Virus record (IMG/VR): IMGVR_UViG_3300011416_000026
Span: 1-32,444 of that record
Source: a virus
Strand: one strand, 5' to 3'
DNA: 32,444 bases
Shown one piece after another: positions 3,063 through 14,779 of this stretch (the first letter of the stretch is position 1; every line of letters starts with the position of its first letter). The notes under the pieces were generated by a model. The model worked only from the letters and a program-made list of their open reading frames with translations. It was not told the origin of the DNA and searched no databases. Both the position numbers and the translations under genes were made by a program.

Positions 3063-4460
3063 ATGTCCGTAGCGCTACGACTAGGGTCAACCGCGCTCAC
3101 TACGAGCGCGACCGCAGACAACATCACGATTATCGGTCCGTCCACCGGAGTCGTGAACGGCGACCTATACATTGCCTGCATCTACGGGAACAACAACCTG
3201 GCCGTAACCGCCGAGGCTGGGTGGAATCTACTCCTCGAATTGAACAACACATCCGCGATGCGGGGCACGATCTTCTGGAAGATCGTCGAGACGGGCGACC
3301 CTGGTAGCGGGCACGTCTTCACGAAGTCGGCCGACGACAACCTGCTCATGGCCGGGTTTATTGTGGTCTACAGCGGGTGCGATGGCACAACTCCAATCGA
3401 CTCGGGAACCCCATCGACAAGCGCGAACGCCTCGTCAGACACCATCTCCTACGCTGATTTCAACCCGGCCGAGTCGAGCGCCTACGTTCTCGCTGTCGCG
3501 TTCTACGCGGAGAACACTACAAATCCTGGGACCGTGAGCGGGACGAACCCGACGTTCGCAGAGGATGCGGACGCTGAGACGGGCGTGGGAGCCGACTGCT
3601 CGATCTTTGTCAATTCCGGGTCCTCGGACGGGTCCGCAACGGGATCGCGCACCCAGGCGAGCAATGCCGCGGTTGACAACATCAACATCGGGGTCCTGTT
3701 CGGGCTAAAGGCGGCCGGGACGATCCATACAGTCTCGGCGTCGATCAGCGCGGCCGCAACGGTCGTTGCTTCCCTGGTCCTGACGGCCGTGGCGGTGGCC
3801 AGCATCGCGGCTTCCGGGTCCGTCACGGCCGCAGCGGTGGCAGAGTACGCCGCGGCATCGAGCATTGCAGGCTCCGCGACGGTGGAAGCGGCTCTCACCC
3901 TAGAATCCGGCGGGACCACCCACGAGGTGGCCGCCTCGATCCAGGGAGCCGGTACCGTCACTGCCAACGCGGTCACGGAGTATGCCGCCCAGGCCTCCGT
4001 AGCGGGCTCAGGTGCGGTCACAGCGGCGGCTTCGGTAGACCGTCTGGCCTCGGCCCAGATCGTCGCCTCAGGCAGCGTAGAGGCGGCCCCGGTGGCCACC
4101 TACGCGGTATCGGCGTCGGTCCAGGGCTCGGCTACCGTCACTGCGGATCTGACGCTGGAGGCTGCTGGCGGCACCACGCACGAGGTCGCGGCCCAGATCG
4201 CGGGGGCCGGTACCGTATCAGCCAACGCCGTAGCAACTTACTCCTTGGTCGCTACGGTACATGGCTCGGCGTTCGTTTCCGCAGTCGAGGCCTCGTCTCC
4301 TGTGCCTCAGCCTGGCCCCTCCATTCCTCTCGACGCCCCTTCCAGCGAGACCTTCCAGGGCGTCGTGCCCGACTTCATCTCTGAATCTGTAGACGCCTCC
4401 AGCGTCGTCACCTTTCAAGGGGTCGTCCCGGATTTCGCGGTCTACGACCTGGGGCCATAG
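3063..4460 (+). CDS. Repeat-containing tail fibre-like protein
   Basis: A 465-aa protein starting at ATG 3063, nine bases after the upstream stop. Residues 1-220 form a beta-rich globular region. From about residue 222 to 410 there are roughly nine imperfect repeats of about 20-25 residues, Ala/Val/Ser/Thr-rich with a core like GAGTVTANAV or GSATVTADL. A longer unit containing THEVAA.I.GAGTV occurs twice (around 3918 and 4176). The C-terminus is proline-rich and carries two copies of TFQGVVPDF, echoed by the GVVP end of the 731-2599 product. The repeats suggest an elongated beta-repeat shaft, hence a fibre or receptor-binding role by inference. Confidence 0.75.
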   Translation: MSVALRLGSTALTTSATADNITIIGPSTGVVNGDLYIACIYGNNNLAVTAEAGWNLLLELNNTSAMRGTIFWKIVETGDPGSGHVFTKSADDNLLMAGFIVVYSGCDGTTPIDSGTPSTSANASSDTISYADFNPAESSAYVLAVAFYAENTTNPGTVSGTNPTFAEDADAETGVGADCSIFVNSGSSDGSATGSRTQASNAAVDNINIGVLFGLKAAGTIHTVSASISAAATVVASLVLTAVAVASIAASGSVTAAAVAEYAAASSIAGSATVEAALTLESGGTTHEVAASIQGAGTVTANAVTEYAAQASVAGSGAVTAAASVDRLASAQIVASGSVEAAPVATYAVSASVQGSATVTADLTLEAAGGTTHEVAAQIAGAGTVSANAVATYSLVATVHGSAFVSAVEASSPVPQPGPSIPLDAPSSETFQGVVPDFISESVDASSVVTFQGVVPDFAVYDLGP

Positions 4461-4464
4461 ACCA

Positions 4465-4824
4465 ATGCCGAACCTGATGCCGGAGGTCGTGAAGGAAGTC
4501 CACGTGGGGGACGTGAGGCCGCTCTCGTTCGTGTTCCTGAAGCCCAACCGGGTCGAGCCCTGGTCTCTCGTCGGCTATGGCGCCGGGATCTCGTTCTGGT
4601 ACGGGGACCTTCCGCCTCACATCGAAAGGGCCGCCTCGGTCGACGGGCCCACTGGCGTCGTGACCTATGAGCTCCTCGGGGATGAGTTCACGACCGAGGG
4701 CGATATCTTCGCCCAGTTCGAGGTGATCGTTCCCGACTGGTACGTGAACGGTGCCGTCGGCAGGTCCTTCGTCCGGACGTGCTCTCCGATCCTGAAGCTC
4801 AGGGTCATGCGGAGGCCCACGTGA
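4465..4824 (+). CDS. Baseplate-type small tail protein
   Basis: A 119-aa protein with an ATG start four bases after the preceding stop. The pattern (VHVGDVRPLSFVFLK, then a central SVDGPTGVVTYEL segment and an aromatic C-terminal part) resembles the N-terminal beta-sandwich of BppU-like baseplate proteins, which attach receptor-binding proteins to the tail tip. The downstream gene overlaps it by 4 nt (GTGA) and begins with a comparable GPIFRFSV segment, so the two may be related by duplication or assemble together. Family assignment is tentative. Confidence 0.65.
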   Translation: MPNLMPEVVKEVHVGDVRPLSFVFLKPNRVEPWSLVGYGAGISFWYGDLPPHIERAASVDGPTGVVTYELLGDEFTTEGDIFAQFEVIVPDWYVNGAVGRSFVRTCSPILKLRVMRRPT

Positions 4825-6155
4825 GAGAGTTCGATCCCATCTGGGACGGTGCCCAGGGCCCGATCTTCCGCTTCAGCGTGAGAGACGTCGCCGGAGTCCG
4901 GGACATGGCGACCGCTGCCGTCGAGCTCTACGTCGAGGACGACGACGGGAATCCTCTCGGGATGAGGCCCGGAGTCGTGATCTCCCCGAAGGTCAATGGG
5001 GAGGTGAACGTCATGCTCAAGGGTAGCGAGACCGACTTCGCTGGCCTCGGAGACCGGCTGGTTCTGGTCCCCAAGTTCTACTACGCGACCTCGCTCGCGG
5101 GACTGCCCGCGACCAATCTGCTCGCGAATCCCTCGTTCGACGCGGCGACCGGGACGCCCCCTGCGAGGCTCCCGGACGGCTGGACGCTCGTCGGAGCGCG
5201 CACCGCGACATGGGACAACTACGCGAACGACCCGGCTCCTCCCGCGATCTTCGGGACATTCCAGCTCGTGAAGCACGCGACGGTCTCCGAGCCCGACTAC
5301 ATCCAGCAGGTCCTCTCTCTCTCTGCGGCCGCGGGAGACGTGCTTTCGGTCGGATGCTGGCACCGATGCCATTCTGGTGCCGGCGAGGCCGCGAACGACG
5401 ACCACGCGCTCAAGTTCCATCTGGGTCTGAACGCGGACACGATCCAGCGACTACGCGTCGGGTCGAATGACTGGTACTTCACGGTCGGCTCGGTCGTGGC
5501 GGATACCACGTTTTCGGCAGCTACCGTGGCGATCGATCTCCGCGGCACGACCATGTCGAACCGGCTCGACGAGGCCTTCGCCTTCCTCGGAACCTGGAGG
5601 ACCTTCTTCGGAGAGAGGAAGCGGATCCAGGTGAAGCCGAGATCGAGGCCCGTGAAGAGCACGAATCAAATCGCGAAGGTCGGGGGATTCGAGAAGGACT
5701 CGAACGCGGACGGCTTCCCGGACACCTGGTCGAACCAGGCCGCGGGCGTGACGTTCTCGATGGAGAAGATTCCGGCGAACGTGGCAGAAGGGAGCTCGTC
5801 GCTCAAGGCGGTGCTCACGGACGAGACGAACAACCTGATCCGGCTCGTCTGGCGGGACAAGTATCTGGCTGGCGAGACCTGGAGGGCGCGAGTCAAGGTG
5901 AAGACCTCGGGGGCGCTTTCGGGGGGATCCGGCACCGGCGGATACAGCATCGCCCTCCAAACGGCCCCGTTCGACGGAGTCGATCAGTTGGCATCGACGA
6001 CCCTGGGGACGAGCCTCGGATCCTTCACCGACCACGAGGTTACGCTCGCTCTCACCGCAGACCGGAGCGAGCTCTGGATCACGATCAACCTGAACGGACA
6101 GACCGGAACTCTCTGGCTCGACGACGTTCGCCTGGATCGCACCGCAACCCCGTGA
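4821..6155 (+). CDS. Tail protein with two carbohydrate-binding-module-like domains
   Basis: A 444-aa protein; GTG 4821 is chosen because it overlaps the upstream TGA in a GTGA arrangement. Residues 1-95 look like a baseplate-attachment domain. Residues ~97-260 begin TNLLANPSF and fit a jelly-roll carbohydrate-binding module (LLANPSFD...W... pattern, with a VLSVGCWHRCHS strand). Residues ~275-444 (GGFEKDSNADGFPDTW to TLWLDDVRLDRT) form a second module of the same kind. This suggests a receptor-binding or surface-glycan-binding tail protein. Residues 176-201 are encoded by a 78-bp segment that recurs at 14531-14608, antisense inside the exonuclease gene. Confidence 0.8.
   Translation: MREFDPIWDGAQGPIFRFSVRDVAGVRDMATAAVELYVEDDDGNPLGMRPGVVISPKVNGEVNVMLKGSETDFAGLGDRLVLVPKFYYATSLAGLPATNLLANPSFDAATGTPPARLPDGWTLVGARTATWDNYANDPAPPAIFGTFQLVKHATVSEPDYIQQVLSLSAAAGDVLSVGCWHRCHSGAGEAANDDHALKFHLGLNADTIQRLRVGSNDWYFTVGSVVADTTFSAATVAIDLRGTTMSNRLDEAFAFLGTWRTFFGERKRIQVKPRSRPVKSTNQIAKVGGFEKDSNADGFPDTWSNQAAGVTFSMEKIPANVAEGSSSLKAVLTDETNNLIRLVWRDKYLAGETWRARVKVKTSGALSGGSGTGGYSIALQTAPFDGVDQLASTTLGTSLGSFTDHEVTLALTADRSELWITINLNGQTGTLWLDDVRLDRTATP
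5346..5423 (+). repeat. 78-bp dispersed repeat, copy 1
   Basis: This segment matches 14531-14608 in the same orientation at 65 of 78 positions by hand alignment. Here it is coding in the sense direction (residues 176-201 of the tail protein, beginning SVGCWHRCHSGAGEAAND). Nine of the 13 differences fall at third positions of this frame and are silent; the other four give D/N, L/I and K/R. Homology stops abruptly on both sides. Confidence 0.85.
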
Positions 6156-7900: not shown

Positions 7901-8205
7901 GCCTCCCCCTCGATCACGACCCGGACCTTGATCGGCTTGTCGGTTATCGGTGGGCACCCGGCGCGATGGAGCCACTTGATGCAGACGAGCGCCTTCTCGT
8001 GTCGTCGCTGTCCAAAGGGGCGCACTTTGGCCTGACCACAGTTGGCCGTGCATGGGCACCGCCACACCCACACCTCGATCCCCCGCCGCTTGCGCTTGGA
8101 GATTCCCTGACCGCACTGAGGGCAATCAATGCCCCCTTTGCGCGGCGCAGCATTCATGTCCTGCTTACATGTCGGGCACAGCGCCCGCCGCTTGCGCTTG
8201 GTCAT
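7897..8205 (-). CDS. 102-aa zinc-ribbon protein
   Basis: ATG 8205 overlaps the upstream stop as ATGA. The product begins MTKRKRRALCPTCKQDM and contains CPTC, CPQC and C-x-C-x3-C clusters (CPCTANC), fitting at least two zinc ribbons separated by basic stretches (KRKRR occurs twice). Nucleic-acid binding is plausible. The first codons share a 15-base block with the downstream gene start and with an internal segment of this gene (8085, 8187, 8444), suggesting local duplication. Confidence 0.65.
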   Translation of the reverse strand: MTKRKRRALCPTCKQDMNAAPRKGGIDCPQCGQGISKRKRRGIEVWVWRCPCTANCGQAKVRPFGQRRHEKALVCIKWLHRAGCPPITDKPIKVRVVIEGEA

Positions 8206-8462
8206 TCGAGCCCCTTTTTCATCCGGTCCGCATCGTCCTGCGCGTCGTTGAGTCGCTGCTTTAGTAGCTTGGCAATCGGGTCTATCAACATGAAGCTGAG
8301 GCAGGCCGGTGGATAGTAGAGCGTCACGGATGCCTTTCTGTTCCTTCCTGCCCAATACGGAAGGCGCAACATGATATTTCCGTTGGTGAGAGTCTTGATC
8401 TCTATGCTGAGCATTTCGCTCTTGATGACGATGTGTGCCGGGAGCCGCTTGCGCTTGGTCAT
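8202..8462 (-). CDS. Hypothetical early protein, 86 aa
   Basis: ATG 8462 is preferred over a GTG at 8498, giving MTKRKRLPAHIVIK. The N-terminal MTKRKR and the underlying bases match the start of the next gene downstream. The middle is beta-like (EIKTLTNGNIMLRLPYW), followed by a helix with charged residues near the C-terminus (RLNDAQDDADRMKKGLE). No family recognised. Its stop overlaps the next start (ATGA), placing it in the coupled early operon. Confidence 0.6.
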   Translation of the reverse strand: MTKRKRLPAHIVIKSEMLSIEIKTLTNGNIMLRLPYWAGRNRKASVTLYYPPACLSFMLIDPIAKLLKQRLNDAQDDADRMKKGLE

Positions 8463-9374: not shown

Positions 9375-10160
9375 CTACCTCCAAGCGCTGGCCGGGATGA
9401 TCTGGTCCCCGCCGGTCGGAGTGAGCCACCGAATGGACGCCGCGGCCTGCCCGGTCTGGTGGCGGTACTCCAGCACCGCGTCGTAGCGGTTTCCCGCCGT
9501 GAGCCCGACCGTTTTGCACAACTCCCCGCACGACGTGCCGACGTCCCTCTGTGACAGGAGCGATCCGGTCAGGTAGAACTTGAAGTCCCCGTTGCACACC
9601 TCGGGGCAGATGGTGAAGTTCCCGCTCATGGGCGCCCGGACCTGCCCCGTCCACCGCACCGAGAACTGGTCGGCCCCCATGCCTGGTAGCGGCGCCCCGC
9701 CCCACGACTCGTTGATGATGGAGTCAGGCAGCGCGTCGAACAGGGCCGTGAAGTCGGCGTTGTCGTAGTAGGCCGCGGTCAGGTCGGACGGGCTCGGTTG
9801 GGGCGCCGTGGTCGTGTCCATCGGGACCGCGAAGACGTAGTGCGCCGGGCAGGAGTAGTACCCGTAGATGTCGCCCGCCTCGACCAACAACTCCCCGACG
9901 GATCCGTCCTCGACATCGAACAGGATGCCGATCAAGTCTCCTTCCTTCCCGTGTACCGTGACGGTGCCGAACGGGATGGTGTCGGGGTCGGTGGTGCGCC
10001 ACCCGAAGATTCGGAGCGTGGCCAAGTCCTGGAGCAACGTGCCGGTGGTGTCGAGGCACACCGTGTCCTGGTTCCGGTCCGGCAGGGTCATCCATATTCG
10101 GAGGCTTCCGCCTTGCGCCGTTCCCACGTACGAGCCGAGGCACAGGAGACAGAGCAGCAC
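9375..10160 (-). CDS. Secreted PA14-domain protein
   Basis: The frame is open to ATG 10253, but upstream starts would overlap the zinc-finger gene (10088-10279) heavily; GTG 10160 gives 261 aa beginning with a short hydrophobic export-like segment (LLCLLCLGSYVGTAQ). The start remains uncertain. The C-terminal ~130 residues look like a PA14 beta-barrel: AAYYDNADFTALFDALPDS, FSVRWTGQVRAPMSGNFTI, GDFKFYLTG, and a closing strand AAASIRWLTP. PA14 domains usually bind glycans or sit in adhesins, toxins and glycosidases. A secreted PA14 protein in a replication operon is unusual and may alter the host surface. Confidence 0.72.
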   Translation of the reverse strand: MLLCLLCLGSYVGTAQGGSLRIWMTLPDRNQDTVCLDTTGTLLQDLATLRIFGWRTTDPDTIPFGTVTVHGKEGDLIGILFDVEDGSVGELLVEAGDIYGYYSCPAHYVFAVPMDTTTAPQPSPSDLTAAYYDNADFTALFDALPDSIINESWGGAPLPGMGADQFSVRWTGQVRAPMSGNFTICPEVCNGDFKFYLTGSLLSQRDVGTSCGELCKTVGLTAGNRYDAVLEYRHQTGQAAASIRWLTPTGGDQIIPASAWR

Positions 10161-10279
10161 AGCTCGTGCGGATCGAGATAGTGCTGCTTCCGCTGCATCC
10201 GTACATAGGACGGCAGCTTGCTGAACGGCTTTCCGCACTTCGAGTAGGCGCATTTGAGTAGTACCCTCCGCCCCTTCAC
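10088..10279 (-). CDS. 63-aa zinc-finger protein
   Basis: GTG 10279 overlaps the upstream TGA (GTGA). The product has CAYSKCGKPF near residue 10 and HELCCSVSCA near residue 38, a C-x4-C...C-x4-C arrangement (first cysteine of the CC pair) like the small zinc fingers found in phage early regions. The C-terminus is basic and Trp-containing (ARTWERRKAEA). It overlaps the start of the PA14 gene in another frame. DNA or RNA binding is inferred only. Confidence 0.6.
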   Translation of the reverse strand: MKGRRVLLKCAYSKCGKPFSKLPSYVRMQRKQHYLDPHELCCSVSCASARTWERRKAEASEYG

Positions 10280-12318: not shown

Positions 12319-12525
12319 CTACGGAACCGCCTTACTCCCTCGCCATCGATAGAAGACAACCGGCCCGTCCTGCTTCTCCCTCTCGTACTGGTCGAGCACT
12401 TTCAGCGGTCCCAACCAAGCCTTCCTCGGCAGCTCCATGTGAGTCGGGGGCTCCACGCCGAGAGGCAGCGCGAACCGGAGCCCGTCCTCCCACCCTCCGA
12501 CCAGCTCGACCACGACCGGATCCAT
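12319..12525 (-). CDS. Hypothetical early protein, 68 aa
   Basis: ATG 12525 overlaps the upstream TGA by one base (TGATG). The product MDPVVVELVGGWEDGLRFAL... has a mixed alpha/beta look with a DQYEREKQDGPVVFYRW segment. No metal-binding cluster or membrane span is present. It lies between the annealing-protein and replication genes and is presumably translated with them. No family recognised. Confidence 0.62.
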   Translation of the reverse strand: MDPVVVELVGGWEDGLRFALPLGVEPPTHMELPRKAWLGPLKVLDQYEREKQDGPVVFYRWRGSKAVP

Positions 12526-13604
12526 CAGGCGCCGGCCCGCTTCGCCTCCTCAGCTGCCGCGAGCTCCCGGTACTCCTTCGCCGCCTCGATCAGCCGCTTC
12601 GTGACCTCTGCCATCTGGTCGCCGATCGAGAGCCCGCTAGCCGCGACCTCGTTCGTGATCCGGGTCCGACGTGCCGCGAGCCAGTCGTGCTGGGTGGGCA
12701 GGGGCTCCAGCTGGGGGGGTGTGGACACGGAGGGAGGAGCTGGCGGTGCGGGCGCCGCCACAGGTGTGACAGAAGTGACAGAACCGACACCCACGGCGGC
12801 CTTGAGCCCCTCCAGCCCCGGCGCCGACGATCCGACAGGAACCTCCACCTTCTTCGACGGATCTATGAAGGCCTCGTCGACCGTGGCCTCTCCGTCCCGG
12901 ATCGCGCGAGCTGCCGCCCTGAGCGTCACCAGGTGGTCCGACGTGATGTCCTCGATCCCGGAGACCCCGAGGGTCGTGAAGACCATTTCCTGGGACACGC
13001 CCAGGTTCTGGAGGTAGGCCAGGCTGTCAGCGCGACGGCTGGAGAGCGTCTTCTCGTCTCCCTTGACCACCTTCCTCGCTTCCTGGTAGATCGGCTCCCA
13101 GAACGCCCGTGGGACGCCCGCGAGCGCGGCGTTGCGGCGGGCGATGGCGCACGCGGCGCGCCCCGTGACGACGACCATGTCCGGCGTGTACCGCTTCCCG
13201 TTCTTACCGAGGATCCCGCGCTGGACCTCGTCGCTCGTCGCCGAGTTGCTCTCCAGGTCGTGGAAAACTCCCTGGGCCGTGACCGTCGCGTCGTCTACCG
13301 CGACCACGCGGGACGAGACCCGGCAGTTCCCCCAAGCCGAGATCGCCATCTCAGCGAACCGGATCGATGCCCCCTCGATCGTTTTCCCGGCCCGCGGCAT
13401 CGCGAAGATGCAGGCCTCCGCGACGTCAGGGTTGAGGACGACCATGTCCTTGAGATGCTTCGTGAACCTTGTCACGCTCCGAGGGAAGGCCTTTGCGGTC
13501 GCGACCTGGGAGTCGATCGCCGCCCTCTCGAGCAGTACAAGATTCGTAAGCGATGGGACCTCTAGCGGCTGCACTTCGATCACTTCCTGCTCCTGCTCCA
13601 GCAT
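12525..13604 (-). CDS. Probable single-strand annealing / recombination protein
   Basis: A 359-aa protein. ATG 13604 has AGGAGG six bases upstream, making it a better start than the GTG one codon earlier. Residues ~40-190 contain a phage recombination-protein-like pattern: CIFAMPRAGKTIEGASIRFA, WGNCRVSSRVVAVDD, GVFHDLESN, GRAACAIARRNAAL and a VPRAFWEPI segment. After a Pro/Ala-rich linker (~265-295) comes a helical C-terminal tail. I place it with phage proteins that accompany an exonuclease; annealing activity is inferred from pairing with the YqaJ gene next door, not from a diagnostic motif. A different DNA-metabolism role is possible. Confidence 0.68.
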   Translation of the reverse strand: MLEQEQEVIEVQPLEVPSLTNLVLLERAAIDSQVATAKAFPRSVTRFTKHLKDMVVLNPDVAEACIFAMPRAGKTIEGASIRFAEMAISAWGNCRVSSRVVAVDDATVTAQGVFHDLESNSATSDEVQRGILGKNGKRYTPDMVVVTGRAACAIARRNAALAGVPRAFWEPIYQEARKVVKGDEKTLSSRRADSLAYLQNLGVSQEMVFTTLGVSGIEDITSDHLVTLRAAARAIRDGEATVDEAFIDPSKKVEVPVGSSAPGLEGLKAAVGVGSVTSVTPVAAPAPPAPPSVSTPPQLEPLPTQHDWLAARRTRITNEVAASGLSIGDQMAEVTKRLIEAAKEYRELAAAEEAKRAGA

Positions 13605-13639
13605 CACGCGCCTCCTAGTCTCGGAAAAAGGGGGCGGGG

Positions 13640-13708: not shown

Positions 13709-14779
13709 CTAGCTCTTCTTCTTGATCAGCCGGAACGTGCGGATCCCCGGCTTTGAGTACCTAGCCTTGGCAAGTTCCAGGTTCACCATGTCCCCTTGGT
13801 GGAGCTCCTGAAGCCGCTCCATGAGCGCCTGAGAGAGCCGCTCCCACTCGACCGCCTGCTTCGGTTTCGCCGCCTTCCAGGTCACAAGCCAGCCGTCACC
13901 GTCCATCCCCTCCGCGTCCCCGATCAAAGACTTCAGCTGGTTCACGATCGAGCCCTCTCTGCCCTCGAGCTCGCTGATCTGTTCCTTCAGGGATAGGAGC
14001 TCCTTCCCGAGGATCTGGGCGGCGTCGGTGGCAGGGATTCGAGGCGCCGTGTCGGCCGGGTGGAAGGCCTTCAGATACGCCGACGCTCCGTCGCTTCCGT
14101 CGATCGGGGGCTGGGCGCCCTGGACGATGTAGGTCTGCCACCACTCGGTTAGTCTCGAGATCAGGATCTCCTCGAAGACCGCGTCGCGACGAACCGTGTA
14201 GATACGGAAGTCGGATCCACCGATCAGGACCGCGATGTCCCAGACGGGGAATCCCGTCACGGCCATGTAGTGCAGGCACTGTACGAGGTAGTGCCTTGGG
14301 ATCTCGTCGGTGCCCTCGGGGCCCCAGCCGGTGTCGGCCCAGGCGTTCGCGGTCTTTATCTCGAGCCCCCGTTCCTCTCCGATGACGAGGAAGTCTGGCG
14401 TCGCGATCAGGCAGTCGTGTTCCGGGTGCTGCATGAGCTTCTCAGGCTTCCAGACCTTCAGACCCGTCTTCTCGGTGTACCGCTTCGCGACGATGTCTTC
14501 GAGCGCAAGGCCCCACCACATGGGCTCGGTTCGGTTGGATGCTGGCACCGCTGCCACTCCGGCGCCGGAGAAGCGGCGAACGACAACCACGCGATCCGGT
14601 TCCACCTGCTTCTTGGTCTGCGCGCCTCCCGTCTTCTCGAGCCAGATGCTGAATGAAGTCTCCCAAGGGGAGAGCCCGAGGATCGCCGCCGCGTCGGACC
14701 CGCCGATACCGCGGCGCCTCTGCGCGAGCCAGAGCGCGCGCCCGATGGTCCGGTCTTCCAACGCCACGCCCGCCCTCAT
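13709..14779 (-). CDS. YqaJ-like recombination exonuclease with an in-frame insertion
   Basis: A 356-aa protein; ATG 14779 has a GGAGGTG SD and overlaps the upstream stop (ATGA). The frame upstream is a shadow. The YqaJ/lambda-exo fold is visible: RRRGIGGSDAAAILGLSPW near residue 22-39, WWGLALEDIVAKRY near 88-101, ATPDF (Asp129), LEIKT (Glu140, Lys142), then HYLVQCLHYMAVTG. It degrades one strand of duplex DNA to provide substrate for the annealing protein next door. The C-terminus adds a coiled-coil-like helix. Residues 58-83 correspond to the 78-bp repeat shared with a tail gene and exceed the usual spacing in this family by about 20 residues, so the enzyme appears to carry an insertion. 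Confidence 0.85.
   Translation of the reverse strand: MRAGVALEDRTIGRALWLAQRRRGIGGSDAAAILGLSPWETSFSIWLEKTGGAQTKKQVEPDRVVVVRRFSGAGVAAVPASNRTEPMWWGLALEDIVAKRYTEKTGLKVWKPEKLMQHPEHDCLIATPDFLVIGEERGLEIKTANAWADTGWGPEGTDEIPRHYLVQCLHYMAVTGFPVWDIAVLIGGSDFRIYTVRRDAVFEEILISRLTEWWQTYIVQGAQPPIDGSDGASAYLKAFHPADTAPRIPATDAAQILGKELLSLKEQISELEGREGSIVNQLKSLIGDAEGMDGDGWLVTWKAAKPKQAVEWERLSQALMERLQELHQGDMVNLELAKARYSKPGIRTFRLIKKKS
14531..14608 (+). repeat. 78-bp dispersed repeat, copy 2
   Basis: The match to 5346-5423, given in that orientation. Here the segment lies antisense within the exonuclease gene and encodes residues 58-83 of the enzyme (minus strand). Its plus-strand reading keeps the peptide SVGCWHRCHSGAGEAAND almost unchanged. 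It contains the perfect 14-base palindrome CTCCGGCGCCGGAG, flanked by CCGCT and AGCGG, which the other copy lacks. Confidence 0.85.

Follow-up and report, generated by a model that had tools for sequence, protein, structure and literature searches.

Here, we describe a recombination exonuclease gene of a metagenomic phage that carries, in its reading frame, 78 bp matching the opposite strand of an unrelated gene in the tail region of the same genome. These 78 bp probably record a one-off, relatively recent illegitimate insertion of a diverged tail-region fragment, which fell in frame and was tolerated. As an example of a new protein segment arising by antisense reading of an unrelated gene, the case is unusually legible: the sequence shows which gene was the source, that a sister phage has the empty site, and that divergence preceded insertion. 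The stretch of DNA analyzed, referred to below as the window, spans the whole of a linear IMG/VR virus record (32,444 bases), which contains two copies of the segment only.

These copies, at 5346-5423 and 14531-14608, lie in the same orientation with their codon boundaries aligned and are identical at 65 of 78 bases. The edges are sharp on both sides, identity dropping abruptly beyond 5345-5423 and 14530-14608. No other non-self match in the window is as strong (BLASTN E = 4.6e-17, 85 bits); the runner-up lies inside gene 3063-4460 (E 1.8e-9). When both copies are read on the plus strand, the encoded peptides, SVGCWHRCHSGAGEAANDDHALKFHL and SVGCWHRCHSGAGEAANDNHAIRFHL, respectively, share 23 of 26 residues, and the three differences are all conservative. 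Nine of the 13 base differences fall at third codon positions of this frame, which are first positions of the exonuclease frame. The repeat, its orientation, the peptide identity and the placement of these nine differences had all been reported in the original prediction, and each is borne out here.

Table 1. Features of the window relevant to the insertion
Feature	Position	Strand	Basis or remark
Tail-region gene, 444 aa, function unknown	4821..6155	+	GTGA overlap with preceding gene
Resident copy of the 78-bp segment, residues 176-201 (SVGCWHRCHSGAGEAANDDHALKFHL)	5346..5423	+	Conserved in L093 and L099
YqaJ/RecE-like recombination exonuclease, 356 aa, catalytic core intact	13709..14779	-	PF09588, phrog_434, fold
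78-bp insert, exonuclease residues 58-83 (QVEPDRVVVVRRFSGAGVAAVPASNR), apparent antisense of a diverged tail-segment allele	14531..14608	-	Absent in relatives
3' junction of insert (exonuclease orientation), tandem TCGGT TCGGT across the boundary	14526..14535	+	Sequence
5' junction of insert (exonuclease orientation), CTTCTT then GGTCTG	14609..14620	+	Sequence

The plus-strand copy is part of a late/tail-region gene that is conserved but has no assigned function. Full-length homologues of this gene were recovered from two IMG/VR records, L093 (59% identical) and L099 (56%), and in all three phages that have the gene the segment is continuous and conserved. The protein matches no Pfam or PHROG family and has no confident fold, its AlphaFold model being poor (pLDDT 48), which leaves the earlier label of receptor-binding protein without support. 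GenBank phages yielded no homologue, the records of exonuclease neighbors contained no relative of the gene, and a portal search returned short contigs only, none with the gene. Two GTDB matches (L094 and L095) were discarded as spurious, being short frame matches. Single-sequence scans of IMG/VR, with the exonuclease or with the whole tail-region protein, recovered no relatives; alignments and a short region were required instead.

The identity of the minus-strand gene as a YqaJ/RecE-like exonuclease, proposed earlier from the sequence, is confirmed by matches to PF09588 (E 3.5e-37) and phrog_434 (E 4e-84) and by a lambda-exonuclease/LHK-Exo fold (Foldseek to 3sz4, 3syy and 3sm4). D129, E140 and K142 are invariant across the aligned exonucleases, in the arrangement of the PD-(D/E)XK core (D, E-x-K), and by analogy with the family they are likely to be the catalytic residues. 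The adjoining gene (12525-13607, minus strand) matches only phrog_3657, a family of unknown function (2e-44), and judged by its position may encode a single-strand annealing partner. A PA14-domain protein (E 8.8e-11) is encoded at 9375-10253 on the minus strand, inside the early minus-strand block and not among the structural genes.

Comparison with other exonucleases locates the insert. In about 80 YqaJ/RecE-type relatives, 40-43 residues separate the GGSD and WG motifs (52 in four of them), compared with 65 here; a single value of 71 (L024) reflects a mis-start at an upstream GGSD. When the protein is aligned with its phage relatives, residues 58-83, exactly the extent of the repeat, face a gap in almost every sequence; in L007, a short unrelated insertion occupies this position. 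An 11-residue insertion (e.g., IFTVNEHGGFE) is found in the same loop in L007, L056, L059 and L073. The closest sister phage (G020; 43 kb, the phage of L099) shares the tail-region gene and the exonuclease with the window phage, but its exonuclease lacks the insert. Its exonuclease is the closest found (52% in the multiple alignment), and its loop reads LEKTGQVKDRPP-TKPMEWG at the insert site, and thus represents the empty site. With the insert subtracted, the loop of the window phage has 39 residues, about one fewer than the 40-43 of its relatives, in a loop that is variable in length, and the exact limits of the insert could shift by some bases, as some YqaJ loops read QVEPEE (e.g., L033) and the insert starts QVEPDR.

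Because all three phages with the tail-region gene have the segment uninterrupted and conserved, and because YqaJ relatives, the sister phage included, lack it, the comparison indicates that the segment originated in the tail-region gene and entered the exonuclease gene in reverse. The same direction of transfer had been proposed originally from the pattern of codon differences, with the absence of residues 58-83 from YqaJ relatives named as a check; about 80 of them do lack these residues, and close relatives with the same residues, sought as counterevidence, were not encountered. Both of the nearest relatives, G020 (L104-L106) and G015 (L096-L097), share the tail-region gene, and G015 shares other late genes as well. 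G015 has no YqaJ and, by eye, appears to have a replication module with a RecD-like helicase and a nuclease; module exchange appears to account for the difference in replication genes between it and the window phage.

In an AlphaFold model based on a 37-sequence alignment, the exonuclease core is predicted with confidence, and residues 57-80 form the main internal segment of low confidence, a loop between helices 42-50 and 85-105. This low-confidence loop, the intact fold and the 11-residue insertion in the same loop of relatives suggest that the insert is, most simply, a tolerated surface extension of the enzyme.

The substitutions between the two copies bear on timing. Averaged over mutational paths, the 13 differences comprise 9.5 silent and 3.5 replacement changes in the tail frame, versus 2 silent and 11 replacement changes in the exonuclease frame. 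When these substitutions are placed at random, the tail frame has on average 4.05 silent changes, and a count at least as high as that observed has a probability of 0.0002; in the exonuclease frame, the silent count is no different from random placement, and hence gives no sign of constraint. Since the differences are mostly silent in the tail frame and mostly not in the exonuclease frame, the two copies must have drifted apart before the transfer, when each was still part of a tail-region gene, and the insertion is the more recent event. The exonuclease copy has hardly been altered since its arrival.

The same sites point to the donor. At the 13 differing positions, L099 has the base of the insert at seven and that of the resident tail gene at two, which argues that the fragment came from a different, diverged allele of the tail-region gene. 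For example, NDNHAI is common to the insert and L099, whereas the resident tail gene has NDDHAL. The donor allele was probably that of a related phage, a reading that fits the earlier suggestion of a captured foreign tail-gene fragment. The allele itself was not found in the IMG/VR, GTDB genome and phage GenBank sequences searched, a set from which records very near the window were possibly omitted.

The junctions offer some indication of mechanism. In the tail gene, the segment is immediately followed by GGTCTG (5424-5429), a sequence that occurs again six bases past the insert, so that, at this 6-nt offset, it represents a possible junction microhomology. The junction microhomologies (Table 1) are weak; they are compatible with template switching or single-strand capture and do not prove a mechanism. 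The fragment came from a diverged tail-region allele that shares about 83% identity with the resident copy and most likely belonged to a related phage in the same cell. We suggest that illegitimate recombination with little homology joined it to the exonuclease gene, into which a short single strand or a template switch would have been copied. The phage's own RecE-type exonuclease system may have assisted the joining. The fragment entered antisense, in frame and without stops, into a variable surface loop between two exonuclease helices, adding about 25-26 disordered residues that leave the catalytic core intact and were probably tolerated, with no evident function of their own. RecET has been reported to promote recombination between sequences of 5-13 bp (PMC2327257). 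Like phage mosaicism produced by illegitimate or Red/RecET-type relaxed recombination, the present case would involve an exchange between related phages and a phage-encoded RecE-like exonuclease (PMC2327257). Mosaicism, however, usually exchanges modules, or segments of genes, between corresponding positions, whereas here a reversed sub-gene scrap sits in a non-matching place. Should reads confirm the insertion, it would show that recombination in phages moves fragments smaller than a gene between sites that do not correspond, and that a recombination enzyme can accommodate such fragments in its variable loops.

Several other explanations can be weighed against illegitimate insertion. The window is a metagenomic virus record, the insert is known from this record only, and the donor would be a related phage within the same sample; each of these would suit a chimera, in which a library or amplification artefact joined the tail fragment of a related phage to the exonuclease contig and no real genome carries the product. 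We consider this unlikely. No exact match between the insert region and the resident tail gene exceeds 14 bases, a length too short for the usual assembly k-mers, so an assembler could not have built the insert from shared words. A chimera would further need two switches 78 bp apart, both dominating coverage. Finally, the insert keeps the frame, contains no stop and occupies the single loop in which differences in length are tolerated among relatives, a combination that luck would produce roughly one time in ten by our rough estimate; these features favor a real sequence that has passed selection. It is also conceivable that the fragment was copied long ago from the phage's own tail gene and that the two copies then diverged in place. 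The insert is indeed nearer to the resident tail gene (65/78) than to L099 (59/78) or L093 (51/78). Divergence of the exonuclease copy in place, though, should have left changes that are silent in the exonuclease frame or unconstrained. Instead, both bases found only in the insert are silent when read in the tail frame and replacements when read in that of the exonuclease, and nearly all change would need to have hit the tail copy. This makes such self-copying very unlikely, except where it was followed by a recombinational swap of the resident tail allele, in which case it becomes equivalent to the explanation we prefer.

A role for selection in keeping the segment is harder still to credit: either the mRNA would silence the late mRNA of a co-infecting rival, or the loop would alter partner binding by the exonuclease. 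For the specific proposal that early exonuclease mRNA is complementary to, and represses, the tail-region mRNA of a rival phage (and in part the phage's own), we see only a slim chance. The predicted 78-nt duplex with the resident mRNA is strong (-140.9 kcal/mol), the exonuclease lies among early minus-strand genes and the tail-region gene among late plus-strand genes, and the rival's allele would presumably match the antisense segment near-perfectly. Nevertheless, complementarity follows automatically from antisense insertion, there is no conservation in relatives, and no independent evidence of regulation was found. The openness of the antisense frame was set aside as a sign of function: a stop on the reverse strand requires a plus-strand TTA, CTA or TCA codon, and the segment has few of these.

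The original prediction had also raised a small mobile or gene-conversion element comparable to protein-inserted elements. Gene conversion is rejected, as flanking homology is absent. Rickettsia palindromic elements and other protein-inserted elements are short in-frame insertions that add a segment to protein genes, and the insert resembles them in being short, discrete, in frame and within a protein gene. It also has a perfect 14-bp palindrome, CTCCGGCGCCGGAG, at its middle (14557-14570), formed in part by a base unique to the insert. That it is such an element is nonetheless scarcely credible. In place of multiple dispersed copies there are two, one of which is the ancestral coding sequence of a conserved gene; the insert is not palindromic overall, and folds no better than shuffles (z -0.86, -0.06 and -1.09), with no hairpin-forming unit. 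The patterns searched for in IMG/VR and in GTDB genomes turned up no dispersed copies, and a degenerate DNA pattern for CWHRCHSG found nothing. Transposons and MITEs are likewise a poor fit: the insert ends (14526-14535 and 14605-14620) show neither terminal inverted repeats nor a target-site duplication. Diversity-generating retroelements have template and variable repeats in tail genes, and here too there is a short repeat pair with one copy in a tail-region gene. The second copy, in contrast, is antisense in an exonuclease gene, and the differences are not confined to template adenines but comprise 13 of mixed type, nine of them at third positions. Thus, the 78-bp insert reveals no new mobile element.

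A close parallel is short-patch double illegitimate recombination, reported by Harms et al. in 2016 (cited in PMC7192050). In this process, described in bacterial chromosomes and in transformation, short ectopic DNA is copied into an unrelated site through two homology-poor junctions, leaving a local templated change. Here too, an ectopic template can be identified, since the insert matches the tail-region gene and not YqaJ. Unlike those chromosomal cases, the present one concerns phage genes, with an antisense in-frame product, weak microhomology and a donor that was not found.

Two other sets of repeats are present in the window. The tail-region gene 3063-4460 contains internal repeats of about 65 bases at 3909-4231, at most 80% identical, with a GTTHEVAA..GAGTV motif. 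A sequence of about 19 bases, GCCGCTTGCGCTTGGTCAT (plus strand), recurs at 8084-8102, 8186-8205 and 8443-8462; two identical copies form the starts (MTKRKR) of two different small minus-strand genes, and the near copy encodes SKRKR within another gene.
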